A stretch of 64,000 nucleotides of DNA from Calditrichales bacterium MX18-03 (lineage in GTDB: Bacteria; Bacillota; Clostridia; Lutisporales; Lutisporaceae), in the NCBI GenBank assembly GCA_021083345.1, contig JAJGRE010000001.1:930001-994000 (forward strand), given 5' to 3'. The notes beneath the pieces are model-generated. The model was not told the origin of the DNA. It saw only the letters and a program-made list of their open reading frames with translations, and did no database searches. Shown here in pieces: positions 3,214-18,899 of this stretch; within the stretch, counting starts at the first letter, position 1, and every line of letters starts with the position of its first letter. Both the position numbers and the translations under genes were made by a program.

Positions 3214-3240
3214 AATAGGATTCCTTTCCGGAATCCTATT
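3214..3240 (-). terminator. Rho-independent terminator after the Fe-S protein gene
   Basis: AATAGGATTCC and GGAATCCTATT form an 11-bp stem with a 5-base loop overlapping the stop codon. The minus-strand transcript continues with AAATTTTTTG. Confidence 0.75.
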
Positions 3241-4186
3241 TGCTGAGTCCTATGGCGCCTTTCGGGCAGTTTTCCGCACAAATGCTGCATCCCCAGCAGC
3301 GTGCCTTATCAAACTTCACTTTTTTATCCGCTGTCATATAAAATGCTCCAAAGTTGCACATCCGGGTGCATTTTCCGCAGTGGCTGCATCTGTCCGGATC
3401 CCAATCCACCTGATACCCGGAATCAGGCCATTTTCCTTTTGAACCCAGCTTTTCTGCCGCTCTGAAGGGATAACAGCAGCAGCCGTCGCAATTGCACAAG
3501 GCTTCATCCTCGCCGGTGTGCATCAGCCCGCTCTTGTTTGCCTGCGCCAGGATTTCCTTGGCTTTTTCCTTTGTTATCTTCTCCCCCCAGCCCCTGTCTG
3601 CGGGCGAATTCATGCCGCATCCGAACTGGATGCAAACGTTCCTGGGCTTTTCACAGTTCAAGGCGATCGCCTTGCAGTTGCATGGCTGGAGATAGATAAC
3701 CTGTTCCAAGTGATCGATCATCGCCTGTGCTTCCTTCAATGTCATCAGATGGCTGTTATGCAGAGAGACTGTTTCTCCGTTAATTTTTTTTACGACAGTA
3801 TCCTTGATACGCTCAACATACTCAGCCAGACACCATTCATCCAGCTCTTTCCTGTCAGCCGCTGGGATACCATACCATTTCTCCGGCTCGTATTGGGCAA
3901 AGTAGGACATGCGGGTATAAAAATCCGTTATACCGTAGCAAAGTATCCCGTCTTTTTCTGTTTTTCGGATAACCGCACGCCTGTAGCACGCCAGCAAAAA
4001 CGCTTCGGCATTCACATTAAAATCCGACTTTATGATTTGTGAAAACTCATGATGGCTGAGTTCTTCTTTCCCAACCAGCCCAATCAGCTTGATCTCATCT
4101 TTCGTCAGCATTGCCGGAGCTAAATGATAAAACCTTTCCGGCACCTCAAAGCCTGCCATGGCTTGTACCCATTCTTTTCCTTGCAT
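3236..4186 (-). CDS. Cysteine-rich 4Fe-4S ferredoxin-type protein
   Basis: A 316-residue iron-sulfur protein. The C-terminus carries two adjacent 4Fe-4S motifs (C-x2-C-x2-C-x3-C, beginning CSHCGKC and CWGCSIC). The middle holds further cysteine clusters, including CNCKAI and CNCDGCCC, which could bind another cluster. The N-terminal 150 residues look helical and I do not recognise them. The start is set at ATGCAAGG because GGGGGAG lies 5 bases upstream; a longer reading adds 9 residues. It follows the sigma-54 activator by 28 bases on the same strand, so it is probably co-expressed with it and may supply electrons to demethylation or corrinoid reactivation. That role is inference. Confidence 0.7.
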   Translation of the reverse strand: MQGKEWVQAMAGFEVPERFYHLAPAMLTKDEIKLIGLVGKEELSHHEFSQIIKSDFNVNAEAFLLACYRRAVIRKTEKDGILCYGITDFYTRMSYFAQYEPEKWYGIPAADRKELDEWCLAEYVERIKDTVVKKINGETVSLHNSHLMTLKEAQAMIDHLEQVIYLQPCNCKAIALNCEKPRNVCIQFGCGMNSPADRGWGEKITKEKAKEILAQANKSGLMHTGEDEALCNCDGCCCYPFRAAEKLGSKGKWPDSGYQVDWDPDRCSHCGKCTRMCNFGAFYMTADKKVKFDKARCWGCSICAENCPKGAIGLSK

Positions 4187-4214
4187 TGGCTCCCCCCTAT
4201 CCTGATCCTGCATT

Positions 4215-5858
4215 CTATATCCCGAATTTTCTTATCCGGTACTGAAGGCTTTGCCGCATGATGCCCAATTCCTCCGCTGCCCTTGTCACATTGTTTTTAT
4301 GGCGCTTCATGGTATTCCGGATAACCTCTTTTTCATAAACCTCCATGATGTCCTTTAGGGCTTTGACTTGGTTTTCCTCCAGGCCTTTTACATCGCCGTC
4401 GCTTCGCAGATACTTCGGCAAGTGGCTGATCTGTATGATGTCTCCGCTCATGGTATTGAAGCAATATTCAATAACATGGACCAGTTCCCTCACATTGCCA
4501 GGCCAATCATAGGCCCGGAACCTGCCAAGCACCTCTTCGGAAACCCCTTTGACCTGCTTGGAATAGTGGCGCGACAGTTTCTCTACAAAATACCGTGTCA
4601 GCACCCCGATATCTGCCCTTCGCTCCCTGAGGGGCGGAATATTGATGGTAACGGTACTGATCCGGTAATAGACATCCTTCCTTATTGTATTGCTTTCAAT
4701 GGCACGGAAGGGTTCTTCATTGGTAGAGGAAATGATCCTGACATCGCATTTAATATCCTTCAGGCCGCCGACGCGCCTGAATTTATTTTCCTGTAGCACG
4801 CGCAGCAGTTTGGACTGCATATGGAGGCCCATGGAGTTGATCTCATCCAGGAACAGCGTTCCCCCTTCTGCTTGTTCGAACAAACCCATCTTATCGGTGC
4901 TGCCCGTAAAAGAGCCCTTTTCCGTTCCAAACAGGATGCCCTCCAGCAAGTTCTCTGGAATAGCAGCACAGTTAATGGCAACAAACTCCTTATCCTTTCT
5001 GTGACTGGCTGAATGAATGCTCTGCGCAAACAACTCCTTCCCCGTGCCGGTCTCGCCGTAAATCAGGACCGAGCAGTCCCTTTGGGCAATGTTCTGAGCC
5101 AATTCAATGGCTTCCCTGAAGTTTTCATCTTCACCGATCAAATCATCAAACTGATAGTACTTGAAAGCATAATACTTCTTTTTCTTCTTTATGCTCTGCA
5201 AATTTTCGCTCTCTGACAGGAACTTCTCCAGTACAGACGCACTGACTTGATGCTGCTCTACTACAGACGTATCCTCCACCAATCCGACAGCTCCAATGAC
5301 CGTATTTTCAACAAGCAGCGGATATCCGGAATTAATCGTTGTGATCAATTCTCCATTCTTGTTTTTGAAATGATCACATCGATACAATACAGGCGCCTTG
5401 GTTTTTATGGTATTCAAGACGGTGCTGTAATCTTCATTCAGGTCATAAATATCCAGTAAATGTTTTCCTATAATACTGGATCGGTTTGTTTTCTCGATTT
5501 TCTCACTGGATTTGTTGCAGAACAGGAGATATCCGTTTTGATCAAAAATCTGTATGCCGTCAGAAATGCAGTCAAAAGCTGCTTCATATATCTTACTATT
5601 ATCGGCACCTTTCGTTATATAGAGAATATACCCCCTGCCCAATGCATTCTTGATTTTTTTGAACTCAAGCATCATACCCTTAAAGTTGACATACCCGCTG
5701 TTCTTATATAAATCAATATCCAGAAAGCTGTAGATTTCTTTCCCTTTATACTCATTCCAGATGCTGATCTTGTCCATTTCCTCACTGAGGTTCCAGTACT
5801 CGATATGCTTGACCACATTGTTGTCGTCCAGAAAGCAGATGATATCATAGGAGACCAT
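4215..5858 (-). CDS. Sigma-54-dependent transcriptional activator (PAS-AAA-Fis)
   Basis: A 547-residue enhancer-binding protein. A poorly conserved N-terminus and a PAS domain (about 90-200) are followed by a lysine-rich linker, an AAA+ ATPase (about 235-460; Walker A GETGTGKE at 268-275, Walker B TLFLDEI at 334-340, arginine-finger region PPLRERR) and a C-terminal Fis-type helix-turn-helix. The sigma-54 contact loop reads GSFTGS instead of GAFTGA. It diverges from the MttB-like gene, whose promoter is a near-perfect -24/-12 site, and a second such site precedes the BCCT gene. By position this is the activator of both; the PAS domain presumably senses a substrate or the redox state. Confidence 0.88.
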   Translation of the reverse strand: MVSYDIICFLDDNNVVKHIEYWNLSEEMDKISIWNEYKGKEIYSFLDIDLYKNSGYVNFKGMMLEFKKIKNALGRGYILYITKGADNSKIYEAAFDCISDGIQIFDQNGYLLFCNKSSEKIEKTNRSSIIGKHLLDIYDLNEDYSTVLNTIKTKAPVLYRCDHFKNKNGELITTINSGYPLLVENTVIGAVGLVEDTSVVEQHQVSASVLEKFLSESENLQSIKKKKKYYAFKYYQFDDLIGEDENFREAIELAQNIAQRDCSVLIYGETGTGKELFAQSIHSASHRKDKEFVAINCAAIPENLLEGILFGTEKGSFTGSTDKMGLFEQAEGGTLFLDEINSMGLHMQSKLLRVLQENKFRRVGGLKDIKCDVRIISSTNEEPFRAIESNTIRKDVYYRISTVTINIPPLRERRADIGVLTRYFVEKLSRHYSKQVKGVSEEVLGRFRAYDWPGNVRELVHVIEYCFNTMSGDIIQISHLPKYLRSDGDVKGLEENQVKALKDIMEVYEKEVIRNTMKRHKNNVTRAAEELGIMRQSLQYRIRKFGI

Positions 5859-6007: not shown

Positions 6008-6023
6008 TGGCACATTTCTTGCT
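6008..6023 (+). promoter_or_regulatory. Sigma-54 (-24/-12) promoter of the MttB-like gene
   Basis: TGGCAC (6008-6013), five bases, then TTGCT (6019-6023). The invariant GG and GC are correctly spaced. It lies 42 bases before the mttB-like start and downstream of the divergent sigma-54 activator gene. Confidence 0.85.
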
Positions 6024-6065: not shown

Positions 6066-7442
6066 ATGAAACCTACCGTCAGGATTTTGACCCATAGGGA
6101 TATAGAGAATATTCATCAATGCACATTGGATATTCTGTCCAGGACAGGTGTCGTTTTTAATAGTCCGAAGGCTGTTGAAGTTTTCAGAAAACACGGTGCA
6201 GCTGTTGAGGGCAGGAAGGTGCTGCTACCGGAAGCAACGGTGGAAGCATACCGGAAAACAGTTCCCCCTCATTTTGTCTTACATGGAAGAGATCAGAATA
6301 AGGATGCCGTTATCGGTCAGGGCAGCACCGTCTGTGCGCCGGCCTGCGGTCCGGTCTATGTCCAGGAAGGGGAAACCGGAAAACGTGAAGGTACCAGCCA
6401 GGATTATCTGAACTTTGTCAAGCTGACGCATCAGAGTGATTTTCTCGATATAAACGGTGACGGCATCCTCTATCCCAATGATATTCCACCCCAGCTGTTC
6501 CACCGCTTTGTCATGTTGACCACCATAAGGCATTCCGACAAGCCGTTGATGGGTCTGACCAACGGTACACAAGTCTCCCGGGAATGCATCGAAATGGCCC
6601 GGATCGCTATGGAAGGCCGCGAGGACAATATTCTCATGGGCATGGCCAATGTCAATTCGCCGCTTTATTATGATGAAGGTATGGCAGACGGCATTATTGA
6701 GTATGCCAGATGGAAGCAGCCAATCGGTATCGCATGCTGCGGAATGGCCGGTTTTACAGCACCTGTAACCATGGCCGGCATGCTGGCGGTCAACAATGCT
6801 GAAATAATGGCAGGCATCATCCTGTCCCAGTTGGTTAATCCGGGCAATCCCGTCATTTACGGCAATACTTCCACTGTAGCCAGCATGAAAACCATGGAAC
6901 TTGCCTTGGGCGCCCCTGAAACCGCTTTACTGGTCACGGCCTCTGCCCAGCTTGCCAAGTATTATGGAATGCCCTTCCGTTCAGGAGGCGGCTTGACAGG
7001 CGCTGCAGCAAACAACATCCAAGCAGGCTATGAATCCATGATGAACCTGTTTGCCACCTATCTCAGTGAAACGGATTTTGTCCTGCATGCAGCAGGCATC
7101 CTGGATAACTTTACAGCCATATCCTATGAGAAATTCATACTGGACGAGGAAATGGGACGAATGATCAAGCATTACATGAAGGGCGTAGAGGTAAATACAG
7201 ATACACTGGCCTACGAGACCATCCATGAAGTGGGGCCTTGCGGTAATTACCTTGTTGCCGACCATACGGTGGATCATTTCAGAAGTGAGCTTTGGGAGCC
7301 GCGCCTGACAAGCCAGAAGGACAGTGCCGATATTGCGGAAGCAGCCCGGAGTGCCTGCAGAAAAAGGCTGGAGCAATATATCCCGCCTGAGCTTAAGGAA
7401 GAAACCGAAAAGAAACTGGCGGATTATTATGACAAAGAATAG
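6066..7442 (+). CDS. MttB-family trimethylamine/quaternary-amine methyltransferase (non-pyrrolysine)
   Basis: A 458-residue member of the MttB superfamily, corrinoid-dependent methyltransferases that demethylate amines. In true trimethylamine MttB an in-frame amber codon encodes pyrrolysine in the QAG-O-E motif. Here the motif is QAGYES with Tyr322 and there is no internal amber. It therefore belongs with MtgB-like enzymes that act on quaternary amines such as glycine betaine, carnitine or proline betaine. The start is ATG at 6066 behind GGAGGAG; an upstream in-frame ATG at 6036 lacks a site. It is expressed from a sigma-54 promoter opposite its presumed activator. No corrinoid protein (MttC) or CoM/THF methyltransferase partner lies beside it. 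The substrate could be a betaine imported by the nearby BCCT carrier. Confidence 0.85.
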   Translation: MKPTVRILTHRDIENIHQCTLDILSRTGVVFNSPKAVEVFRKHGAAVEGRKVLLPEATVEAYRKTVPPHFVLHGRDQNKDAVIGQGSTVCAPACGPVYVQEGETGKREGTSQDYLNFVKLTHQSDFLDINGDGILYPNDIPPQLFHRFVMLTTIRHSDKPLMGLTNGTQVSRECIEMARIAMEGREDNILMGMANVNSPLYYDEGMADGIIEYARWKQPIGIACCGMAGFTAPVTMAGMLAVNNAEIMAGIILSQLVNPGNPVIYGNTSTVASMKTMELALGAPETALLVTASAQLAKYYGMPFRSGGGLTGAAANNIQAGYESMMNLFATYLSETDFVLHAAGILDNFTAISYEKFILDEEMGRMIKHYMKGVEVNTDTLAYETIHEVGPCGNYLVADHTVDHFRSELWEPRLTSQKDSADIAEAARSACRKRLEQYIPPELKEETEKKLADYYDKE

Positions 7443-7487
7443 AAAAGAAGTCCGATAAAGCATATGCTTTATCGGACTTCTTTTCTA
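7440..7487. terminator. Bidirectional terminator between convergent genes
   Basis: A perfect 48-base palindrome centred on GCATATGC, with A-rich and T-rich outer ends, begins at the stop of the MttB-like gene and ends 17 bases before the stop of the lyase gene. Confidence 0.85.
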
Positions 7488-7503: not shown

Positions 7504-9075
7504 TCAGAATTTTAAAGCGCCAATACGGTCTTCAACACATTTGACCAGGTTTCCGTTATGAATCAATGTCCTGACATAGTCTATATCGGGACCGAAGTAC
7601 CGGTCTTCATCCACAGTGGGAACCTCTTCTCGCACTAAAGCGTAGACTGCATCCGTCACCGCGGAGCGATTCAGGCCTTCAACAAAGTCCAAGGCTTGAA
7701 CAGCTGTCATCACTTCGATTGCCAGGATGTACTCAAGCTTTTGGGAAACCTGATAGGCCTTCCTGGAAGCGAAATATGCCATGGACACCGGGTCTTCCTG
7801 ACTCGCGCAGGTTGGGATGTTATCGATGCTGGACGGGTGCGAAAGGATCTTGATTTCCCCGACCAACCCGGCAGCGGTGTACTGCGGTATCATATATCCG
7901 TTGTTAAGTCCGGGGCTTTTTACCAGGAAGGATGGGTATCCGCTTAAATGCCGGTTAACCAGACGGTCGGTGATCCTCTCCGAGAGCTTTGCAAGTACGC
8001 CCATGGCGATGCATGCGGAATCGGCATGGATCCCCACATAGGATCCGTCAAAGTTACCGCCGGAAAGGGCAATGCCGTCATCCGCCTCCGGATAAATGAT
8101 CGGATTGTCACTAACAGAGTTCATTTCCTCATGAATGGCCGTCAAAGCCTCTCTCAGTGTTCTTTTTACAGCCCCGTGGGTCTGCGGAAGCGCCCTGAGC
8201 GCCAGGGAATCCTGAACCCTCAGGTTCAGGCTGGCCTTTGCGATCTCACTGTCCTTCAGCATCTCCAGCAGGTTCTCGGCTGTCCTCCATTGTTCAATAT
8301 GCTTCTTGCGGCCGATAATCCTGCCATCACATGCTTTCAGGGTCCCCCGAAGCGCCTCAAAGGCTAGGGCTCCCGCGATATCTGCAGCCTTTGCGGCTTG
8401 AATCGCATTATATAAAGCCATGACTGCCATTGCGGTTACGGAGGTTGTACCGTTAAGCAGCGACAGGCCTTCCTTGCACTGTATCGTGATGGGCTGCAGT
8501 CCTGCCTGCTTCAGCGCATCAGCGCCTTCCAGCAGTTTTCCCCGATACCATGCTTTTCCTTCACCCAAAAGCACCAATGCCACATGGCCTTCTACGCCCA
8601 GATAGCCTACCGACCCTTCCCCGGGTGCGTAGGGCGTTACATCGTGATTAAGGAGATCCCTAAGCAATTCCAGCATTTCCAGCGAAACACCCGAATAGCC
8701 TTGTCCTGTATTCAACAGCATCATAAGCTGTATGCCGCGGACCAGCTCTTTTTCCAGCGGTTCTCCGACGGCACAAGCATGTGAGCGGATAATATTCGTT
8801 TGAAGCTTCACTGAATCCTCCGGTGATATGACATTTCTGACATTATCTCCAAAGCCTGTCGTTACACCATAGATCAGCCTGTTCTCTGCCAGAAATTTCT
8901 CCAGCAGGTCTTTGGTCTTTTTTACGCGTTCCCTGTATTCATCGGAAAAACGGACTTCAGCACCATATCTTGCAACAGCAACAAATTCCTCAATTGTGAA
9001 ATCGCCCTTTCCAAGTACAACTTCCCGGATCTCTTTCGGATCCCTACATAAAACCGTGTCGTCATGATTAAGCAT
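7504..9075 (-). CDS. Aromatic amino acid lyase homologue lacking MIO; ergothionase-like
   Basis: A 523-residue protein aligning end to end with histidine ammonia-lyase (HutH): YGVTTGFG at 69-76, then GSVG at 154-157. The Ala-Ser-Gly that cyclises to the MIO electrophile is replaced by Tyr-Leu-Gly (158-160), so ordinary histidine deamination is very unlikely. The known MIO-less enzyme of this family is ergothionase, which eliminates trimethylamine from ergothioneine to give thiourocanate. The setting agrees: a BCCT (betaine) carrier and a small membrane protein upstream, a methyltransferase of the trimethylamine family downstream, and no other hut genes. I infer a trimethylammonium lyase for ergothioneine, hercynine or a similar betaine. 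Start ATG behind GGGGAGG. Confidence 0.75.
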   Translation of the reverse strand: MLNHDDTVLCRDPKEIREVVLGKGDFTIEEFVAVARYGAEVRFSDEYRERVKKTKDLLEKFLAENRLIYGVTTGFGDNVRNVISPEDSVKLQTNIIRSHACAVGEPLEKELVRGIQLMMLLNTGQGYSGVSLEMLELLRDLLNHDVTPYAPGEGSVGYLGVEGHVALVLLGEGKAWYRGKLLEGADALKQAGLQPITIQCKEGLSLLNGTTSVTAMAVMALYNAIQAAKAADIAGALAFEALRGTLKACDGRIIGRKKHIEQWRTAENLLEMLKDSEIAKASLNLRVQDSLALRALPQTHGAVKRTLREALTAIHEEMNSVSDNPIIYPEADDGIALSGGNFDGSYVGIHADSACIAMGVLAKLSERITDRLVNRHLSGYPSFLVKSPGLNNGYMIPQYTAAGLVGEIKILSHPSSIDNIPTCASQEDPVSMAYFASRKAYQVSQKLEYILAIEVMTAVQALDFVEGLNRSAVTDAVYALVREEVPTVDEDRYFGPDIDYVRTLIHNGNLVKCVEDRIGALKF

Positions 9076-9114: not shown

Positions 9115-9381
9115 TTACTTCTTGCAATAGTCCATTTTCCTGAACATAGCCCTATAGAGTACGATCAATCCCCAAGATGTGGATAAAGCCGGCATTGCGG
9201 CCGTTAAAACCGCTTCAAAGGGCGGCATTGCAGAAAAGCTCAGGGGACCAAAAAACGCAATAAAGCTAAGCGTCAGAAAAACAACAAGCATAACACGTTC
9301 GACCATTGACGACGGCGGAGATAGAAAGATTTTAGCAACATCGACTTTGACTTCCAGCTTTGCATTCTTTTTTGTTTTCAT
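9115..9381 (-). CDS. Small membrane protein, two predicted helices
   Basis: 88 residues, family not recognised. A polar, lysine-rich N-terminus of about 25 residues is followed by two hydrophobic segments (about 30-48 and 58-78) and a short basic tail. The start is preceded by AAGGA. It lies 39 bases upstream of the MIO-less lyase and 227 bases after the BCCT gene. It might be a transporter accessory or anchor subunit; nothing in the sequence decides this. Confidence 0.55.
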   Translation of the reverse strand: MKTKKNAKLEVKVDVAKIFLSPPSSMVERVMLVVFLTLSFIAFFGPLSFSAMPPFEAVLTAAMPALSTSWGLIVLYRAMFRKMDYCKK

Positions 9382-9520: not shown

Positions 9521-9565
9521 TTTTTTATAGTGTAGGAAAGTTATACTTTCCTACACTATAAAAAA
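9521..9565 (-). terminator. Terminator after the BCCT gene
   Basis: A perfect 20-bp stem with a 5-base loop and A6/T6 ends, beginning 43 bases after the BCCT stop. Confidence 0.85.
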
Positions 9566-9607: not shown

Positions 9608-11176
9608 TTATTCTTCAACCTTGTCTATATAGAACATTTTAACACAGGCCACAACCTGTAGGGTAAACAGGAACAGTACAACAAAACCGCCTGCGGCCGA
9701 AAGATATTTGACGCCGTCAACACCCTGTACGCCGCCGCCAAAGGTTACCATCAGGTATGCCATCAGGCCGATGGAAACCGCCCACGCCAGCTTTTGCCAG
9801 GAAGCAGGTTCCTCATCAAAAGCGATATCCTTGGTGCATAAGCCTGCAACCGTTCTGGTGATGGAGTCTGCACAGGTGGAGAAGGAGATGATCAATGCAA
9901 ACATGATAGCAGGAATGAAAATGGCACCCAAGGGCACATGCTGCAGGAAAGTCCATAAGGCTGCCACCGCACCGCTGCTGTTGATAGACCCGATGAGATC
10001 CACTACACCTGTGGACTGCCATAAAATGGCGGTTGAACCGAAAATACCGAACCATATGATGCTGAATACCGAAGGCATAATCCAGTTGATCACCATGAAC
10101 TGGCGAATGGTTCTGCCATAAGAGATGACGGCAAGGAATATCCCCATGAGGGGTGCATAAGCAATCCAGATCGCCCAGTCATACAGCGTCCACCACATGA
10201 CCAGCGCCTCGCCGCCGATATCGATGGGATCAAGACCCCATATCCAGAAATTCTGCAGCCAGTAGGCCATTCCTGCGGTAGTCGTTCTGAGTATGTACAG
10301 GGTAGGTCCCAGAAGGAACAATGCGATCAAAAGAATATAGTACAGCTTCGCATTCAAATCCGCACAGAATTTGATCCCCCTGTCCAACCCGACTAAAGCT
10401 GAGATGGAGAAGGTTGCTGTTATGATGACTGTCAGAATAAACCAGATTACCGGTCCCTGTTTGATGCCATATGCTATTTCCAGACCGGCGCCGACCAATG
10501 TCAATCCGGCACCCAGCGAAGCGGACAAACCAAGGGCAATGCCCAATATTGCCAAGGTATCCACCAGTTCTGCCCAGAACCCTGTGGTAATCTTGTCCCC
10601 AAACAGCGGAATAAGGGATGACGCCACCGACAGGGGCTTTTTCTTGTTAAAATACATGTAGGCTACCACAAGTCCGCATAACGAATACATGGCATAAGGT
10701 ACAAAAGTCCAGTTATAGAAAACACGGGCCAGAGAGAAAACTGCGGCTGTTGCGGATTGGGGCGTGACGCCGGTCTGTGCCAGCTCTCCCCAGATGTTTC
10801 CGAAGTAAATGATGGGTTCATTGACACCCCAGGTTACGATGCCTGTGGCAATGCCCCCAGTGAGCGCCATGGCAAACCAGGCCATAAACGAGTATTTGGG
10901 CTTTGCTTCTGCTCCGCCGAACCGGAGCTTACCCAGCTTTGTAAAGGTAATAAAGCCAACGAGGATCAGTGCGACGACAGAGATGATCTGGTACAGCCAG
11001 CCGAAGCTGCTCAGCGTCCATAGGAAAACTTTCTGGAAAGTATCCGTCATGATCTTATTATTGGCAAGTCCCAGCAAGGCCGAACCTGCTATGATAATAA
11101 ATGACGGCAGAAAAACACCCATCCGGAGTGGCTTGGCTTTTTTCGCTTTTACGGTATTCGTTTCCTCTTTTAACAT
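9608..11176 (-). CDS. BCCT-family betaine/choline/carnitine transporter
   Basis: A 522-residue, strongly hydrophobic protein with about 12 membrane segments, as usual for BCCT carriers. The family core is visible: GGIATGIVTWGVNEP in the third helix region and the tryptophan-rich WTLYDWAIWIAY followed by GRTIRQF in the eighth. BCCT proteins import trimethylammonium compounds such as glycine betaine, choline, carnitine and, in some bacteria, ergothioneine. The gene has a near-perfect sigma-54 promoter 45 bases before its start codon. It lies in the same direction as, and upstream of, the MIO-less lyase, which makes the lyase substrate its likely cargo. Energy coupling (sodium, proton or exchange) cannot be read with confidence. 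Confidence 0.88.
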   Translation of the reverse strand: MLKEETNTVKAKKAKPLRMGVFLPSFIIIAGSALLGLANNKIMTDTFQKVFLWTLSSFGWLYQIISVVALILVGFITFTKLGKLRFGGAEAKPKYSFMAWFAMALTGGIATGIVTWGVNEPIIYFGNIWGELAQTGVTPQSATAAVFSLARVFYNWTFVPYAMYSLCGLVVAYMYFNKKKPLSVASSLIPLFGDKITTGFWAELVDTLAILGIALGLSASLGAGLTLVGAGLEIAYGIKQGPVIWFILTVIITATFSISALVGLDRGIKFCADLNAKLYYILLIALFLLGPTLYILRTTTAGMAYWLQNFWIWGLDPIDIGGEALVMWWTLYDWAIWIAYAPLMGIFLAVISYGRTIRQFMVINWIMPSVFSIIWFGIFGSTAILWQSTGVVDLIGSINSSGAVAALWTFLQHVPLGAIFIPAIMFALIISFSTCADSITRTVAGLCTKDIAFDEEPASWQKLAWAVSIGLMAYLMVTFGGGVQGVDGVKYLSAAGGFVVLFLFTLQVVACVKMFYIDKVEE

Positions 11177-11220: not shown

Positions 11221-11236
11221 TGCAAGAACAGTGCCA
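11221..11236 (-). promoter_or_regulatory. Sigma-54 (-24/-12) promoter of the BCCT gene
   Basis: On the minus strand, TGGCAC (11231-11236), five bases, TTGCA (11221-11225); same layout as the mttB-like promoter. Confidence 0.85.
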
Positions 11237-11433: not shown

Positions 11434-12318
11434 TCAATTAGCCGCCCACTCTGAAATCTGTTCAAACATGATGGCTACAGCCAGCAAGTCGGCTGACCCG
11501 CCCGGACTGATATGCTTCTCAATGAATACACGATCCATTTCAAATACCAGCTCCTTGCCTTGATCTGTCAGCATGCCGCCGGCATCCAAAGCACGACGGG
11601 CATTTTGCTTTACATATTCCAGCGCTTCCATGTCATGTCTTGCAGCAACATTGGTGTCTTCATTCACCGACATCAGGTGAAGGAGCGTCTGCACGTAAAT
11701 ATCATTGGTATGATATTTTTTTTCTGATTTCAGCTGCAACAACACAGGCAGTGCGCAGCGCCTTACCGTTGGAAACCCGCCTTCAACTTCTCCCCGGATC
11801 CCTCTGAGCCCATATTTTTTATACAGCCTTTCACCGGCGGTGAGGCCTTCTGTCTTGCTCATAGAAGACAGTTCCTGAAAGCATAGGCCTTTTGTCATTA
11901 TGGAGACCTTTGAACAAATGGCATCGACATCCATGCTTTTACCCCTATTTTCTGCCACGCAGCAAGCTGAGGCGGCACAAATGATCCCCAAGGAAAAAAT
12001 CAGGCCTTTATGCGTATTGACGCCGCCTGTCGCTTCGAACATGACTCTCTCAGCTCTTATTCCGATCCCTCTTAAGGCCTTGAAAAGTGCCTGGGGGTCA
12101 CAGCCGGCAAACTGCATGCCCGCTTCTGCACAGGCAGAAAAATAAAAAACCAGCGATGCACTGCTGGACATGAAGGTAAAGAAATCCATGTCCCGGTGGG
12201 CTCCCGAATTGAACCGGTCTACAAGCCCCGGTTTTGGACTGGCTGAAACCTCATACATCAAGGCTAACAGTGCTTTTTGCGAGATCATTTGTACGATGCG
12301 TTCATCCTTATTCGACAT
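11434..12318 (-). CDS. citG: CitG, triphosphoribosyl-dephospho-CoA synthase
   Basis: A 294-residue protein of the CitG/MdcB family. It makes the precursor of the citrate lyase prosthetic group from dephospho-CoA and ATP. Visible family features are SASPKPGLVDRFNSGAHRDMDFFTF near the N-terminus, TGGVNTHKG and, at the C-terminus, SPGGSADLLA. The start is ATG with GGAGG 4 bases upstream; a longer frame adds 11 residues without a site. It is the last gene of the citrate cluster, 84 bases after tctA with a hairpin between. Together with CitX it completes the set needed to activate the acyl-carrier subunit CitD. Confidence 0.9.
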   Translation of the reverse strand: MSNKDERIVQMISQKALLALMYEVSASPKPGLVDRFNSGAHRDMDFFTFMSSSASLVFYFSACAEAGMQFAGCDPQALFKALRGIGIRAERVMFEATGGVNTHKGLIFSLGIICAASACCVAENRGKSMDVDAICSKVSIMTKGLCFQELSSMSKTEGLTAGERLYKKYGLRGIRGEVEGGFPTVRRCALPVLLQLKSEKKYHTNDIYVQTLLHLMSVNEDTNVAARHDMEALEYVKQNARRALDAGGMLTDQGKELVFEMDRVFIEKHISPGGSADLLAVAIMFEQISEWAAN

Positions 12319-12351
12319 ATATCCTCCATCATCGTTCCGAAATCGAAACAA

Positions 12352-12395
12352 CGGCCAAACCTGACGGACATTTAGCGCGCAGCCAGGTTTGACCG
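12352..12395 (-). terminator. Hairpin between tctA and citG
   Basis: CAAACCTG (12356-12363) pairs with CAGGTTTG (12384-12391), extended by flanking CGG/CCG, with a 20-base loop. No clear T-run on the minus strand follows, so it may be a partial terminator or an mRNA-stabilising element. Confidence 0.4.
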
Positions 12396-12402
12396 TATCC
12401 TT

Positions 12403-13914
12403 TTATTTCATTGAAATTGAGCTTCCCTGTCTGCTCTTTTTCATGCTCTTTATGATAGGCATTATAACGGAACCGATTGTTAAGGCCAGAAGCGTGATTG
12501 CTATAGGAGAACCCACAAAGATTCCCATGCTGCCGTCTGAAATCACCAGCGCCTGCCTGTAGGAAATTTCCATCATGTTTCCGACGATGATGGCCAAAAT
12601 AAAGGGTGCTGACGGAATCTTCGCCTTTTCCATAAAGAAGCCTACGATCCCGAAAACGATCATGATATAGAAATCAATGACGCTGTTGCTGATGGCATAG
12701 GTTCCGATGAAGGCAAGGCCGAGAATGATGGGATAAAGGATCTTCGGTGGAATGGCCAAGACCCTGACCAAAGCGCCGGCCATAGGGATGTTGACAATAG
12801 CCAGAATGACATTACCCACCACCATACTGGCAATCAAGCCCCAGGCAATATCGGGATGGTTCTGGAAAAGCATCGGACCGGGCTGCAGCCCTAGCATGAG
12901 CAGTGCACCCATCATGACGGCCGTTGTACCGGAACCGGGGATCCCCAGGGAAAGCATTGGAATCAAAGCGCCGACGGAGGATGCATTGTTTGCAGCTTCA
13001 GGCGCGGCCAGGCCAATAATCTCACCCTTCCCGAAGTCCTCCGGATTCTTTGAGAGGTTTTTTTCATTATTGTATGCCATCAGTGCGGCCATTGTCCCGC
13101 CTGCACCTGGCAGCGCACCGATAAGGAATCCAAGCGGCGTGCTTCTCAGAATGGGTTTCCAGGTCCTTCTCCAGTCTTCCCTGGTAATCCATATCTTTCC
13201 GAACTTTGTCTGCATCTTTTTGGTGCCTTCCCGTATATCCTTGAAGCACTTGAATACCTCTCCAAGAGCATAAATGGCAATGATGACGGTCAGAAAGTCT
13301 ATCCCGGACTGCAGCTCCAGGGAGCCGAAGGTAAAGCGGTTGACGCCTGACTGTGGGTCCAAGCCCACCATCGCAATCATCAGCCCGAGGAACATGGACA
13401 GAAAGCCTTTGATGACATTCCCCTTATTCATGGAAGAGGTCATGGCAATTGCCATCAGCATCAGGAGAAAATACTCTGCAGGCCCGAACTTCAGTGCAAA
13501 CCTGGCTACAGGTGTTGCCAGGAAGATCATGAATACGGTTGCAATCATGCCGCCGATAAACGAAGCAATGGCAGAAATCGCAAGTGCAGCCTCAGCTCTT
13601 CCGTTCATGGCCATGGGATAGCCGTCGAAGGTCGCGGCTATGGCAGCGCCGTCCCCTGGTGTATTTATCAGTATGGAGCTTCTGGAGCCTCCGAACATGG
13701 CACCGTAATAAACACCGCACATGGTGATCAGCGCGCCGGTAGGTCCCATTGCATAGGTCATGGGAAGAAGAACGGCAACCCCTGTAGCAGGGCCAAGTCC
13801 CGGCAGCATTCCGATGATGGTGCCCAGAATACCGCCCAATGTGACCCAGAACAGGTTGATGGGTTCAAAAGCAACCTGGAACCCGTTCATCAGGTTTTGT
13901 AAAATCACATCCAT
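12403..13914 (-). CDS. tctA: TctA, large membrane subunit of tripartite tricarboxylate transporter
   Basis: A 503-residue polytopic protein of the TctA family. The family signatures GMLPGLGPATGVAVLLP (near residue 37) and the mid-protein GALPGAGGTMAALMAY repeat are present, as is GIPGSGTTAVMMGALL. About 11-12 membrane helices fit the family. With TctB and the binding protein TctC it forms a secondary, ion-driven importer for citrate or a related tricarboxylate. It lies 19 bases after tctB. Its place inside the citrate lyase operon makes citrate the likely substrate, in contrast to the CitS carriers of classical citrate fermenters. Confidence 0.92.
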   Translation of the reverse strand: MDVILQNLMNGFQVAFEPINLFWVTLGGILGTIIGMLPGLGPATGVAVLLPMTYAMGPTGALITMCGVYYGAMFGGSRSSILINTPGDGAAIAATFDGYPMAMNGRAEAALAISAIASFIGGMIATVFMIFLATPVARFALKFGPAEYFLLMLMAIAMTSSMNKGNVIKGFLSMFLGLMIAMVGLDPQSGVNRFTFGSLELQSGIDFLTVIIAIYALGEVFKCFKDIREGTKKMQTKFGKIWITREDWRRTWKPILRSTPLGFLIGALPGAGGTMAALMAYNNEKNLSKNPEDFGKGEIIGLAAPEAANNASSVGALIPMLSLGIPGSGTTAVMMGALLMLGLQPGPMLFQNHPDIAWGLIASMVVGNVILAIVNIPMAGALVRVLAIPPKILYPIILGLAFIGTYAISNSVIDFYIMIVFGIVGFFMEKAKIPSAPFILAIIVGNMMEISYRQALVISDGSMGIFVGSPIAITLLALTIGSVIMPIIKSMKKSRQGSSISMK

Positions 13915-13933
13915 GGATCAATTCACCTCCAAG

Positions 13934-14410
13934 TTAAATTTCCAGAATCGGCATCATCGGAAGCGGAATTGCCAGGAGCTTGAGGAAAATGACATAGACT
14001 CCTATGCTGAAGGCTGCCGCTACGATCAGATTGGTCTTCCATTTTTCTTTTCCGTTTAATGCGAACAGCATCGCATTCATGAAGATAATTGTTGACAGTA
14101 CATATCCTATGCGTTCAAACAGCAGGGCATATACCAGGGTCACAAAGCAGGTATAAATGATTAGCTTGCTGTCATGAGACAGCCCGTTTGCTTTCTTGGT
14201 TTCCTTGACCGCCTGTTTTTTCCTGCCTTCTATAACTGTAAGTAAAATTCCGCAGATAGTGGTTCCGCTTCCCAGCATCAAGGGGAATATCTTTGGCTCC
14301 ATCGGATTGCCGATGGTTGCATCAGGGAGCATGTAAGCCATGATGCTGTATATGACGCCGAACGCTGTAGAGATCAGACCCGTCATAAGATTAATATTCA
14401 CTTGCTTCAC
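13934..14410 (-). CDS. tctB: TctB, small membrane subunit of tripartite tricarboxylate transporter
   Basis: 158 residues with about four hydrophobic helices, the usual size and pattern of TctB. The frame opens with GTG at 14410. A second in-frame GTG at 14401 has GGGGTG at better spacing and may be the real start, removing three residues. It is separated from tctC by a strong hairpin (14429-14457) and is followed closely by tctA. TctB is needed for transport but its mechanistic role is poorly known. Confidence 0.85.
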   Translation of the reverse strand: MKQVNINLMTGLISTAFGVIYSIMAYMLPDATIGNPMEPKIFPLMLGSGTTICGILLTVIEGRKKQAVKETKKANGLSHDSKLIIYTCFVTLVYALLFERIGYVLSTIIFMNAMLFALNGKEKWKTNLIVAAAFSIGVYVIFLKLLAIPLPMMPILEI

Positions 14411-14428
14411 CCCGCTTTTTATGGTGCA

Positions 14429-14457
14429 TATGAGGTGCCGGAATCCGGCACCTCATA
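14429..14457 (-). terminator. Intercistronic hairpin after tctC
   Basis: A perfect 13-bp stem (TATGAGGTGCCGG) with a 3-base loop and no T-run. In this position, after a binding-protein gene and before membrane subunits, such hairpins commonly raise the ratio of binding protein to channel by stabilising the upstream mRNA or by partial termination. Confidence 0.6.
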
Positions 14458-14472
14458 TAGCTTCCTTTATAC

Positions 14473-15510
14473 TTACTGCTTCAGCATGCCGATTTCACTG
14501 AGCAGCATTTTGCTGTTTTCATTCTCCTGTTCCAGGAACTTGACGAACTCATCCCCGCTGGCGAAAGTATTATCCCAGCCATTGGATTTGCAGGCATTTT
14601 TCCATTCCTCGGTTTCAGACATTTTCTTCAGGGTTTCCTGCCAGAACTTCACAGCATGCTCCGGCATTTCAGGCGCGCCGAAAAGTCCTCTCCAGTTGAT
14701 GAAGGTTGCATCAATACCTAGTTCCTTGCAGGTCGGTATTTCAGCAATTTTGCCTTCCCCAATCCGCTTGTCGGCTGTTGTTGCCAGTGCAACCAGGTCT
14801 CCGCTTTCCATCAGTCCTTTTGCATCAGCTATGCCTGTGGATAATAGATCTACATGCCCTCCCATGACCTGTGCAGGACCGGAGCCATCCTGGAAGCTGA
14901 TGTAGGCAATTTCTTTGACGTTTTCTACGCCGGCTGCTTTTGCGATCTTAAGGAACTGAAGGTGATCCATGCTGCCTGCTGCTGAGGTTCCGCCGACCTT
15001 GACACTCTTGGGATCCTTTTTCAGGGCATCCATGACTTCAGTGATGGACTTATACTTTGAGTCCTTAGATACCACAAAGCACGCATAATCTGCAATCAGT
15101 CTTGCCAGTGGCGTGGTATTCTTATAGCCTAAGGGTGTGGAGCCGTTGAGGTTGATCAATATCAATGGCGGAGAATATACGGTGACGATACTGTCGCTGC
15201 CCTTTTTTTCCTCCAGGTAAGCAAGTGCTACGCCGCCGCCGCCGCCCGGCTTGTTGGTTACAGGCATCGGCACCGATACCAGCTTGGTGTCCTGGAGTGT
15301 CTTTGCTACGGTACGGATGGTGGTATCCCAGCCGCCGCCCGCGCCCGCCGGCGCAATGAACTCTAGGGCTTTTTCCGGGTACTTGACTTCCGGTGCTGCC
15401 GGCGCTTCTCCCGCTGCAGGAGCAGCCGGTTTGCCTGCACAGCCTGTAAGCAGCATGGCCGTTACCACTGTACCTGCAATCAATGTAGTCATTGTCTTTT
15501 TAAATGACAT
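14473..15510 (-). CDS. tctC: TctC, extracytoplasmic tricarboxylate-binding lipoprotein
   Basis: A 345-residue protein with a lipoprotein signal peptide (lipobox LTGCAG; Cys24) and an Ala/Pro-rich linker. The TctC (Bug-type) solute-binding domain follows, with PAGAGGGWDTTIRTVA and NKPGGGGGVALAYL loops typical of carboxylate binding. It captures citrate or a related tricarboxylate outside the membrane and delivers it to TctAB. It follows citX after 107 bases that carry a repeated GTATAC operator-like element, so transcription may be boosted or adjusted here. Confidence 0.92.
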   Translation of the reverse strand: MSFKKTMTTLIAGTVVTAMLLTGCAGKPAAPAAGEAPAAPEVKYPEKALEFIAPAGAGGGWDTTIRTVAKTLQDTKLVSVPMPVTNKPGGGGGVALAYLEEKKGSDSIVTVYSPPLILINLNGSTPLGYKNTTPLARLIADYACFVVSKDSKYKSITEVMDALKKDPKSVKVGGTSAAGSMDHLQFLKIAKAAGVENVKEIAYISFQDGSGPAQVMGGHVDLLSTGIADAKGLMESGDLVALATTADKRIGEGKIAEIPTCKELGIDATFINWRGLFGAPEMPEHAVKFWQETLKKMSETEEWKNACKSNGWDNTFASGDEFVKFLEQENENSKMLLSEIGMLKQ

Positions 15511-15582
15511 TTTTCTTCCCCCTTTAATTTTGGTTTTATCCCTTATCCCTTGGGTTTAAAGCCCTAGGCATAATCCATTTTT

Positions 15583-15602
15583 GTATACTGCATACTGTAT
15601 AC
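15583..15602. promoter_or_regulatory. GTATAC repeat between citX and tctC
   Basis: GTATACTGCATACTGTATAC contains GTATAC at both ends and a third, near-copy CATAC between, at a 7-base period. GTATAC-type sites are typical for GntR-family regulators. It would allow separate control of the transporter genes. Confidence 0.4.
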
Positions 15603-15617
15603 TTTGATATATTTTTT

Positions 15618-16136
15618 TTAATAATAAGCCTTCGCAATGGCTTTGATTTTTTCCATCAACGCGTCGATGGAATGCTTCCTGCTGCGCCCGCATGCATGTG
15701 CTTCATCCTCGCACAGCAGGCATTTGCGTTTGGGATACCCCATCATTTCCCTGGAAATGTTGCAGCCATCGAGTCCAATGACGTCAAAGTCAAACAATCT
15801 TCCCATGGGATGTGCATCTTCTATCTCCAGCATGCATTCCTTCAGAATGCGCTCATCCAGCTTCACTGCCAGCAGTGCTTCATACCCTGTATCCAGCAAG
15901 TAAGTTTCTTTGAAAACAATTTTACGCTTACCTTCAGATAGTTTTTCCAGCAGTGCTGCAAATCCGGTCTCAAAAACTCTGCAGCTCATAGGCATCCTTT
16001 TGCAGGCACCCGGCATATTGACTGTAAATGAGACTATGGGTGCTTCAAAGATTTCAACCAGTTTTTTCTGCCTTGCTGCACGTGCTTCCCGTGAATCCAG
16101 CAGCTGCTCCAGTGTGATCTCGATGCCCTCGGTCAT
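15618..16136 (-). CDS. citX: CitX, apo-citrate lyase phosphoribosyl-dephospho-CoA transferase
   Basis: 172 residues, the standard size of a stand-alone CitX. The family pattern is clear: GRLFDFDVIG near residue 110, then RKCLLCEDEAHACGRSRKH. CitX transfers the prosthetic group made by CitG onto the serine of CitD. It follows citF by 3 bases in the same operon. CitX and CitG are separate here, unlike the fused CitXG of some bacteria. Confidence 0.92.
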   Translation of the reverse strand: MTEGIEITLEQLLDSREARAARQKKLVEIFEAPIVSFTVNMPGACKRMPMSCRVFETGFAALLEKLSEGKRKIVFKETYLLDTGYEALLAVKLDERILKECMLEIEDAHPMGRLFDFDVIGLDGCNISREMMGYPKRKCLLCEDEAHACGRSRKHSIDALMEKIKAIAKAYY

Positions 16137-16139
16137 ACT

Positions 16140-17696
16140 CTACTCCTTTTTTACCTGTCTGATGACGTCGATGATGGAACCATCCCGGTATTTGACCAGG
16201 CCAACGATTTTGTCCTCCCATTGGATGGGTTCCGGAATCCCGACGATGCGGTCGGTCTTGGCCTTCAGCTCCTCGATGGAAATCACCGGCAGCCTTGCAG
16301 CCTTCAGGTTGTACAGCAGGTCCTGCCGCACCGGGTTAACCGCTATTCCCTGGTCTGTTACCAGCACATCCACGGTATGCCCGGGTGTGATGACGGTATT
16401 GACCCTGTCCAGTATGGAGGGCATTCTGCCCCGGATAAGCGGTGCAACGATGATGGCTACCGAAGCGCCTGCAGCCGTATCGCTGTGCCCCCCCGAAGCG
16501 CCCCGGATAACACCGTCGGAGCCGGTAATGACGTTGACATTGAAGTCAAGGTCGATTTCCAGCGCACTAAGTACCACGACATCCAGTTGGTGTGCGGCGC
16601 AGCCTTCATTATCGGGGCTCGCATAATACTCCGCATCGATCTGGTGGTGGAAACGGTTGTTCTTCAGCGACTCCACCGCCCTCAGATCAAAGCTCTGAAC
16701 ATCCAGCAGCTTTTTAATCAAGCCTTCCTCGTGCAGCTCTACAATCTGCTGGGTAATACCGCCTAATGCGAAGCTGGCCTTGATATTGGCAGCAATCATT
16801 TTCTCCCTCAGGAAGCGTGTCGTGGCAAGTGATGCGCCGCCGGAACCCGTTTGAAGCGAAAAACCGTCTGCAAAATAGCCCGAGGCTTCGATGACATCCG
16901 CTGCACATTTTGCAATCAGGAGGTCTTTGGGGTTATTGGTATATCGAGTAGCTCCGGACACAATACCTTTTGAATCCCCGATGGAATCCACAACAACAAT
17001 ATAGTCCACTTGGGACTCCGGTATGCCGAAGGGCACATTAGGATAGCCCACCAGGTTATCCGTTATCAGGACCACCTGTTTTGCATGCAGAGCGTCAACC
17101 TTGGCATAGCCTAAGGAACCGCATGCAGAAGCCGCTGCGTTTTCCCGGGAGTACCCGTTTGCATTTCCGTAAGCATCGCTGGAGGGAACACCCAAGAAGG
17201 CTACATCTATGGGCAGCTCTCCGGAAGCGATTGCCCTGGCCCTGCCGCCATGGGAGTTGATAACAACGGGTATATTCATGAGCCCGTTGGATACCGCTTG
17301 AGCCAAAGCGCCTCTCAGGCCACTGGTTTCAATCCTTCTGACCACCCCGTTCTCTATATGTCCGATCAGGGGGGCATGTATATCCGACAGCGAGCTGGGC
17401 GCCAGGGTCAGATCCTTTATCCCCATTGCGGCGATGGTTTCCATGACCATATTCACCACATGATCCCCATTCCTGAAATGGTGATGAAAGGAAATGGTCA
17501 TGCCGTCTCTCAGACCTGTGGCTCTGACTGCTGCTTCAATTGATTCAATGATCTTGTTCCGCTCCGGATTTCTCTGCCGCTCCTTGGACCTTTGAAGGTT
17601 TTTCACCTGGCCGTTTGCCGTGACCTTCTGATACGTACGCAGTGCTCCGATTCCGGAAATATCAACGGGAATTTCTCTCCCTACTCCATTAAGCAT
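16140..17696 (-). CDS. citF: CitF, citrate lyase alpha subunit
   Basis: A 518-residue protein of the citrate lyase alpha family (citrate:acetyl-ACP transferase). It exchanges the acetyl group on the acyl carrier protein for citrate. Full length, with conserved GLRDGMTISFHHHFRNGD near residue 56 and GASGGHSDTAAG near residue 405. The start ATG follows the citE stop by 4 bases with GAGGTGATAG as ribosome site. Central gene of the citCDEFX block; acts in the cytoplasm as part of the alpha-beta-gamma complex. Confidence 0.95.
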   Translation of the reverse strand: MLNGVGREIPVDISGIGALRTYQKVTANGQVKNLQRSKERQRNPERNKIIESIEAAVRATGLRDGMTISFHHHFRNGDHVVNMVMETIAAMGIKDLTLAPSSLSDIHAPLIGHIENGVVRRIETSGLRGALAQAVSNGLMNIPVVINSHGGRARAIASGELPIDVAFLGVPSSDAYGNANGYSRENAAASACGSLGYAKVDALHAKQVVLITDNLVGYPNVPFGIPESQVDYIVVVDSIGDSKGIVSGATRYTNNPKDLLIAKCAADVIEASGYFADGFSLQTGSGGASLATTRFLREKMIAANIKASFALGGITQQIVELHEEGLIKKLLDVQSFDLRAVESLKNNRFHHQIDAEYYASPDNEGCAAHQLDVVVLSALEIDLDFNVNVITGSDGVIRGASGGHSDTAAGASVAIIVAPLIRGRMPSILDRVNTVITPGHTVDVLVTDQGIAVNPVRQDLLYNLKAARLPVISIEELKAKTDRIVGIPEPIQWEDKIVGLVKYRDGSIIDVIRQVKKE

Positions 17697-17700
17697 CCTA

Positions 17701-18591
17701 TCACCTCGCTAAAATATAACTGTTCTTTACGGCATCATTCAGCTCCAGAACCCTGCGTGCCCTTTCCACGATCGGCTTATCAATCATTCTGCCGTCGAGG
17801 CTGATGACACCTGATCCCTTTTCCTCTGCTTCCCCGATTGCCTCAATGATCCTGACGGATTTCCTGACCTCCTCTTCGGAGGGTGCAAACAGCTTGTGTA
17901 CGATTTCGATTTGTCTGGGATTGACGATGGATTTTCCATCAAAGCCCATTTGTTTGATTAATCTGACTTCCCTGGCAAAGCCTTCTTCGTCATTGACGTC
18001 AGAGAAAACGGTATCCAGAGCATCTATCCCTGCTGCCCGGGCAGCAAAAAGAATCTGGCTTCTGGCTGTCAGCAGCTCTATTCCTTCCGCTGACCGGCTT
18101 GTTTTCAGGTCTGTCACAAAGTCCTCCGCTCCGATGGCAATACCGATCAGACGCTTGCTGGCTGTAGCAATTCCGTATGCGTTTATAACCCCAAGCGCAC
18201 TTTCCACTGCTGCCATCAGCTTTATGGTGCCTTGCACCATGCCGATTTGCTCTTCTATCCGGCTGATCAGTGCATCTGCTTCTTTAACATCTTCCGGCGT
18301 CTCTGTCTTGGGCAGACGGATTGCATCCGGCTTTGCCCTTACCATGGCCTCAAAATCCGCCCCTCCATAGGGCGTGTTCAGACCGTTGACCCTTACCACC
18401 ACTTCAGTACAGCCGTAATCAATGGTTTTCAGTGAGTGGTATACCAGCTGCCTCGCAGCATCTTTCTCTTTGATGGAGACAGAATCCTCCAGATCAAACA
18501 TGATGGCATCAGAGCCGTAGATATGCGCATCTCTGATCATGCCTGGATGGTTGCCCGGTACATAAAGCATCGTTCGCCTCAGCCTACCCAT
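17701..18591 (-). CDS. citE: CitE, citrate lyase beta subunit
   Basis: A 296-residue HpcH/HpaI-fold lyase. It cleaves citryl-ACP to oxaloacetate and acetyl-ACP with a divalent metal. Visible motifs are LYVPGNHPGMI at the N-terminus, MFDLEDSV (metal and substrate region), VRVNGLNT, and GAEDFVTDL near residue 150. Start ATG behind GGGAGGTG, directly after citD. Size and motifs fit the beta subunit; its place between citD and citF rules out the related malyl-CoA lyases. Confidence 0.95.
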   Translation of the reverse strand: MGRLRRTMLYVPGNHPGMIRDAHIYGSDAIMFDLEDSVSIKEKDAARQLVYHSLKTIDYGCTEVVVRVNGLNTPYGGADFEAMVRAKPDAIRLPKTETPEDVKEADALISRIEEQIGMVQGTIKLMAAVESALGVINAYGIATASKRLIGIAIGAEDFVTDLKTSRSAEGIELLTARSQILFAARAAGIDALDTVFSDVNDEEGFAREVRLIKQMGFDGKSIVNPRQIEIVHKLFAPSEEEVRKSVRIIEAIGEAEEKGSGVISLDGRMIDKPIVERARRVLELNDAVKNSYILAR

Positions 18592-18885
18592 CTATTTCAC
18601 CTCCCATGGAAAACAGCTGCTGTGGGTTGCCCTGCTGACCGCCGTCAGCAGCCTGGCACGGATGGTGCAGTCCAGTGCCCCCTTATCGGTGGCGCGCACA
18701 AGCACATCTGTGATGCCCAACTCCTGCAAAGTTTCCTGGATAACATGCCTTATCTGGTTTCCAAACTGATTCAGAACCGTGCTCTTCAGCTGGATTTCAA
18801 TCCCCTTGCCCTCATTCTCCTCAATATGAATCGTAATATCGCTTGATTCAAGCGTTCCTGCTATTCCTGCCTGATGAATCTTCAT
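18592..18885 (-). CDS. citD: CitD, citrate lyase gamma subunit (acyl carrier protein)
   Basis: 97 residues with the start set at ATGAAGATTC, 9 bases after AGGAGG. With this start the acceptor serine in GTLESSD is residue 14, the classical position of the phosphoribosyl-dephospho-CoA attachment in CitD. An in-frame GTG three codons earlier is too close to the ribosome site. It carries the acetyl and citryl thioesters between CitF and CitE. Its stop is adjacent to the citE start. Confidence 0.95.
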   Translation of the reverse strand: MKIHQAGIAGTLESSDITIHIEENEGKGIEIQLKSTVLNQFGNQIRHVIQETLQELGITDVLVRATDKGALDCTIRARLLTAVSRATHSSCFPWEVK

Positions 18886-18899
18886 TTTGAACACCCTCC

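Follow-up and report, generated by a model that had tools for sequence, protein, structure and literature searches.

A MIO-less relative of histidine ammonia-lyase as a probable hercynine trimethylamine-lyase

INTRODUCTION

Two described enzymes come closest to the lyase reported here, namely histidine ammonia-lyase (HutH; P. putida 1b8f and T. acidophilum 7tqr) and the ergothionase of T. denticola (6s7j/6s7q). HutH is the nearer of the two by sequence (about 330 bits) and by fold (Z of 41 to 42), and the new protein has in common with it the catalytic and imidazole-binding residues, the predicted product, and a linkage to hut genes; it differs in that Ala142-Ser143-Gly144-Asp145 of HutH is lost, and with it MIO, in that His330 and Tyr280 are replaced by Asp and Leu, and in that the cut-off of the HutH model is not reached. 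Ergothionase resembles the new lyase in its MIO-free PAL/HutH fold, in having Leu at HutH position 280 and an acid at position 330, in retaining His83, Arg283, and Glu414, and in its BCCT neighbours in Clostridia. The two nevertheless belong to separate clades (about 27% identity) and differ in their loops (Y-L-x-x-E in the clade described here, [GS]S[VI]G-x-x-D-I in ergothionases) and in their surroundings, since loci of the new clade carry true hutU, no thiourocanate hydratase, and another BCCT subfamily.

The gene lies in a 64,000-nucleotide stretch of the genome of Calditrichales bacterium MX18-03 (positions 930,001 to 994,000 of contig JAJGRE010000001.1), which we refer to as the window.

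RESULTS

A complete lyase of the HutH/PAL family

The lyase gene (7504..9075, minus strand) runs from 9075 down to 7504 through 523 codons without interruption, and in a profile search PF00221 covers the whole 523-residue protein (530 bits), as expected of a complete aromatic amino acid lyase. The HutH equivalog model TIGR01225 assigns it 524.8 bits, less than the curated cut-off of 539.15, and no NCBIfam model scores it above that model's own cut-off. Solved HutH chains match it at 325 to 332 bits and the T. denticola ergothionase 6s7j at 162 bits. The predicted AF2 structure (pLDDT 85.6) is most similar to HAL 7tqr (Z of 42.2), followed by 1b8f (41.2) and ergothionase 6s7j (38.9), values so close that the shared fold is the sole safe inference from the model.

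Loss of the MIO precursor and changes in the active site

Residue and neighbourhood comparisons were based on 40 full-length relatives from the clade of the window lyase, 33 MIO enzymes, and 10 ergothionases, with neighbours counted at 42 window-clade and 11 ergothionase-clade loci. The HutH MIO loop GSVGASGDLAPLAH corresponds to GSVGYLGVEGH in the window lyase; where residues 155 to 164 read SVGYLGVEGH (8584..8613, minus strand), HutH has SVGASGDLAPLAH, and three residues are deleted. In the alignment with the 33 MIO enzymes, HutH Ala142 becomes Tyr158 and Ser143-Gly144-Asp145 is deleted, in the window lyase and in all 40 relatives. Judged from this alignment, the MIO precursor (Ala/Ser-Ser-Gly-Asp) is absent, and because Ala142 is replaced and the following three residues are gone, MIO cannot form. 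The original prediction of a MIO-less lyase homologue is thus borne out, and Tyr-Leu-Gly does occupy residues 158 to 160 as it stated, but what it took for a simple exchange of Ala-Ser-Gly for Tyr-Leu-Gly is a three-residue deletion.

Neither chance nor sequencing error explains the altered loop, since 40 full-length homologues have it too: the motif G-S-V-[GA]-Y-[LI]-x-x-E is common to all of them (Clostridia, Bacilli, and one Neomarinimicrobiota MAG), and Tyr158, Glu162, and Asp343 are invariant throughout. The ergothionase loop pattern is not matched, as GSVGYLGVE lacks the ergothionase Asp.

All HutH active-site residues tested (Tyr53, His83, Gln277, Arg283, Phe329, and Glu414) are present in the window lyase, which also retains Asn195. 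Five of these (Tyr53, His83, Gln277, Arg283, and Glu414), which in HutH are known to serve imidazole and carboxylate binding, are invariant in the clade (40/40). Phe329 (Ala, Pro, or Cys in some members) and Asn195 vary between subclades, and subclades with Ala, Cys, or Pro at Phe329 may act on other substrates.

Asp343 (8047..8049, minus strand) lies at HutH His330, a position that is Asp in 40/40 members of the window clade and Glu or Asp in 10/10 ergothionases but acidic in 0/33 MIO enzymes, of which 32 have His and one has Gln. No other column has an acidic residue in 90% or more of each MIO-less clade and in none of the MIO enzymes. HutH Tyr280, in turn, is replaced by Leu in 32 of 40 window-clade members and in all 10 ergothionases. 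Leu at this position would suit a quaternary amine, and a natural reading of Asp343 is that its carboxylate would lie near the departing ammonium.

Phylogeny and the other lyases of the genome

Quick trees including 30 to 40 members of the window clade place the window lyase in a separate clade (SH-aLRT of 99-100) and ergothionases in another (support of 100), and the two MIO-less clades stand apart in unconstrained trees. A phylogeny against ergothionases and HutH had been proposed as a check on the original ergothionase-type assignment, and in it the window lyase falls outside the ergothionases. An AU test does not reject uniting both MIO-less clades as one (P of 0.414), so the features that they share, the acid at 330 and Leu at 280, may be inherited from a common MIO-less ancestor rather than convergent; for the same reason, we do not claim two independent losses of MIO.

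Four PF00221 genes are present in this genome: the window gene, two MIO-type HutH genes (C8:123363, with ASG, and C13:209683, with SSG), and C7:1334991, which by its match to T. denticola 6s7j (527 bits, 50% identity) is the genome's true ergothionase orthologue. After the orthologue (G000:C7:1334991-1336361; L082:6878-8398), the same strand carries genes for Mo and FAD subunits resembling xanthine dehydrogenase and for a BCCT, a set found again in L065, L090, and L091. True ergothionase orthologues and window-type lyases also coexist in C. peptidivorans, P. agri, and G476. The C13 paralogue of HutH (L002; G000:C13:209683-211062), in which Ser-Ser-Gly replaces Ala-Ser-Gly, has as its neighbour a hutU homologue that most resembles S-methyl-thiourocanate hydratase (644, below the cut-off of 880). 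Paralogous pairs occur in three loci (L006, L021, and L025), where MIO-less lyases from two different subclades are adjacent; in L006 and L025, a sodium-solute-symporter-like gene lies between the paired lyases or close to them. P. agri has further divergent PF00221 proteins (L068:5030-6703 and L071:1937-4848), namely one in which the MIO site reads Ala-Cys-Gly and a pair of neighbouring, highly divergent ORFs without a recognisable MIO motif.

Some relatives of the window lyase lie beside urocanate-degrading genes

Urocanate hydratase (hutU) occurs within about 10 kb of the lyase in 11 of 42 window-clade loci and thiourocanate hydratase in none (0/42), whereas the corresponding counts at ergothionase-clade loci are 0/11 and 4/11. 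The HutU of the Paenibacillus cluster is a true urocanate hydratase, with 999.8 bits to TIGR01228 (cut-off of 375), and its scores against the thiourocanate models, 705 and 735, are below their cut-offs of 930 and 880; the hydratases next to ergothionases reach 1021 and 1007 bits with NF058530 (cut-off of 930) and are adjoined by thiohydantoin desulfurase (NF058529). Many of the clade loci with hutU come from close relatives and are not independent. Separate arrangements are those of Paenibacillus, Fictibacillus L014 and G763 (MFS carrier), G682 (BCCT), and the Lachnospiraceae MAG locus L022, in which the lyase ORF is interrupted. In one Paenibacillus genus, hutU is common overall (23 of 30 genomes), but it lies no more than about 5 kb from the lyase in 6/6 clade-positive genomes, which argues for linkage and not mere co-occurrence.

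One strand of G682 carries, in order, HutH (with ASG), a transporter, hutU, hutI, hutG, a second transporter, a BCCT gene whose product is 64% identical to the window BCCT, and the lyase. Because this HutH already makes urocanate from histidine, the second lyase should use another substrate; most simply, it would form the same product from a compound imported by the betaine-type carrier. At the Paenibacillus hut locus of G479, a canonical HutH and an amino-acid-permease-like protein replace the MIO-less lyase and MFS carrier found in most relatives. The window-type lyase of P. alginolyticus lies inside a hut cluster and is the only PF00221 protein detected there.

In Bacilli, the lyase usually has genes for an MFS carrier and an N-methyl amino-acid oxidase as its neighbours instead of a BCCT gene; oxidases of this kind (MSOX/MTOX type) lie near 17 of 42 clade loci, all from Bacilli, and at none of the BCCT-type loci. 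Genes resembling xdh are found near 3/42 clade loci, one of them in an operon with an ergothionase, and none is present in the window. The single-strand gene set of L085:1-7741 (BCCT, MIO-less lyase, small membrane protein, xdh-like subunits, and ergothionase) resembles one operon and includes members of the two MIO-less clades.

Genes and elements around the window lyase

Directly upstream of the lyase is a small membrane-protein-like ORF of 88 aa (9115..9381, minus strand), homologues of which (55-57% identical) are found next to the paired BCCT and lyase genes in L064 and L085. Farther upstream is a gene for a BCCT carrier (9608..11176, minus strand; PF02028, 374 bits), so that lyase, small ORF, and BCCT are all on the minus strand, and the three homologues also occur together in L064 and L085. 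The window BCCT is 65-66% identical to those of L064 and L085 and 32-37% identical to BCCTs beside ergothionases; across the clade, BCCTs next to window-type lyases are 65-74% identical among themselves and 32-39% identical to ergothionase-linked ones. By these identities they form one dedicated subfamily, distinct from the ergothionase-linked carriers. The interval from the small ORF to the BCCT gene contains, at 9521-9565, a near-perfect 20-bp inverted repeat (TTTTTTATAGTGTAGGAAAG...), putatively a terminator or small mobile repeat, and because this strong repeat intervenes, we do not claim a strict BCCT-lyase operon. A sigma-54-like -24/-12 element (TGGCACTGTTCTTGCA; 11221..11236, minus strand; 1 mismatch) is located 45 bp before the BCCT start. 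Farther along, window positions 11434-18894 hold CitG (11434-12351) and then genes resembling, by eye, a tripartite tricarboxylate carrier and citrate lyase subunits.

On the other side, beyond a terminator-like 20-bp inverted repeat (7440..7487), is a convergent gene for a methyltransferase of the MttB superfamily (6066..7442, plus strand; PF06253, 397.7 bits; TIGR02369, 307 bits, below the cut-off of 525), whose more likely start, 6066, is preceded by the ribosome-binding site AGGAGGAG. Since the ORF has no internal TAG, the gene is of the non-pyrrolysine kind and not a pyrrolysine trimethylamine methyltransferase, and it is not a conserved partner of window-clade lyases. Upstream of it is a sigma-54-like element that matches the pattern exactly (TGGCACATTTCTTGCT; 6008..6023, plus strand). 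The pattern has 8 matches in the 64-kb window versus 4 expected, so the two elements situated just before the MttB and BCCT genes are suggestive only. A PrdR-like PAS/sigma-54 activator (4215..5858, minus strand; PF00158, 219 bits) has homologues near 13/42 clade loci, essentially the clostridial ones, and shares 68-70% identity with its C. peptidivorans and C. aminobutyricum counterparts. Homologues (42-45%) of the adjacent 4Fe-4S protein (3236..4213, minus strand) directly adjoin the lyases of L024 and L025.

No hut genes were seen among the ORFs of window positions 1-22246. In the whole genome, hutU is confined to contigs C8 and C13, and C8 carries a hutU-ftcD-hutI-fchA cluster without hutH, through which this genome could use urocanate. 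The original prediction had drawn on a nearby BCCT carrier, an MttB-family gene, and the distance from any hut gene. Both neighbours are there, and the reading as a lyase of the trimethylamine type with a betaine carrier close by is supported as probable. The MttB gene, though present, is weak evidence for trimethylamine, being non-pyrrolysine and not a conserved partner, and we dropped it as proof of trimethylamine release; the distance from hut genes holds locally but misleads, given that the relatives' genes lie inside hut operons.

DISCUSSION

We infer, for both substrate and product, that the window lyase is probably a MIO-independent trimethylamine-lyase converting hercynine (N-alpha-trimethyl-L-histidine, histidine betaine) to urocanate. 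Urocanate is very likely the product, and hercynine is a likely substrate. In the proposed reaction, the BCCT carrier would import hercynine, His99 and Glu427 (HutH His83 and Glu414) would hold the imidazole and Arg294 (HutH Arg283) the carboxylate, and Tyr69 (HutH Tyr53) would remove the beta proton. The trimethylammonium group would sit by Asp343, in space provided by the shortened loop and the change of Tyr280 to Leu, and would leave as neutral trimethylamine; the hut enzymes would then convert the resulting urocanate to glutamate. Because a quaternary amine departs as neutral trimethylamine, no electrophilic cofactor would be needed, and MIO could be lost. The linkage of relatives to true hutU, hutI, and hutG, in several separate arrangements, points the same way. 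Against the hercynine reading, the window lyase is not beside hut genes in its own genome and only about one-quarter of the clade loci are, the L085 lyase shares an operon with an ergothionase, and in the window a terminator-like repeat comes between the BCCT gene and the lyase. In Bacilli, where the MFS carrier and N-methyl amino-acid oxidase take the place of BCCT, the substrate could be another N-methylated histidine.

It is quite unlikely that the window lyase is an ergothionase, releasing trimethylamine and thiourocanate from ergothioneine. The missing MIO, Leu at 280, and the acid at 330 are as in ergothionases, a BCCT gene is nearby, the clade member in L085 is in an operon with an ergothionase, and common MIO-less ancestry is not rejected; however, a true orthologue exists in the same genome and accompanies the window-type clade in three others, the loop and BCCT subfamily differ, and thiourocanate hydratase adjoins none of the clade loci. 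The ergothionase identity originally predicted is rejected on the grounds of that orthologue (C7:1334991), the separate clade with its different loop, and the true urocanate hydratases beside relatives. The substrate could instead be an N-alpha-substituted histidine of the mono- or dimethyl kind, from which a different amine would be released; urocanate would still be the product, the hut linkage would agree equally, and the MSOX/MTOX-type oxidases of Bacilli fit such substrates. We consider this unlikely, since secondary and tertiary ammonium groups are not obviously better leaving groups than ammonium without MIO, BCCT carriers transport quaternary ammonium compounds, and the oxidase is absent at BCCT-type loci.

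MIO-free deamination of histidine would accord with the closeness to HutH (524.8 versus 539.15 for TIGR01225) and with P. alginolyticus, where no second PF00221 protein was detected beside the lyase of the hut cluster. It is highly improbable for the window lyase: the G682 operon contains a canonical HutH as well, two of the PF00221 genes in the window genome are MIO-type HutH genes, Asp at 330 stands in place of the His of MIO enzymes, and, to our knowledge, MIO is required for ammonia loss in every characterised family member. That the clade includes true MIO-free histidine (or N-methylhistidine) ammonia-lyases at all is likewise highly improbable, with P. alginolyticus as the test case; if true, they would be exceptions to the rule that, in this fold, expelling an unactivated amine requires MIO. 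Variation between subclades at Phe329 and Asn195 would allow for a substrate that is a betaine of something other than histidine, aromatic or not, or for lost activity, which we regard as very unlikely in view of the invariance of His83 and Glu414 and the linkage to urocanate-degrading genes; strong conservation across phyla also speaks against decay.

Our literature search returned no paper that names a hercynine lyase or joins hercynine with urocanate and trimethylamine, though most subscription papers were outside its coverage and an earlier report is possible; we likewise found no published gene and no curated family for this conversion. If the hercynine reading is right, the window lyase represents a second clade of MIO-less lyases that has a substrate of its own, and genes of this type, now annotated as histidine ammonia-lyase, would gain a name. 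The acid at HutH 330 and Leu at 280 would then amount to a simple structural rule for predicting trimethylamine-lyases in this fold. Hercynine is the fungal and actinobacterial precursor of ergothioneine; soil and gut bacteria would have a route from it to trimethylamine and urocanate, adding a bacterial source of trimethylamine.
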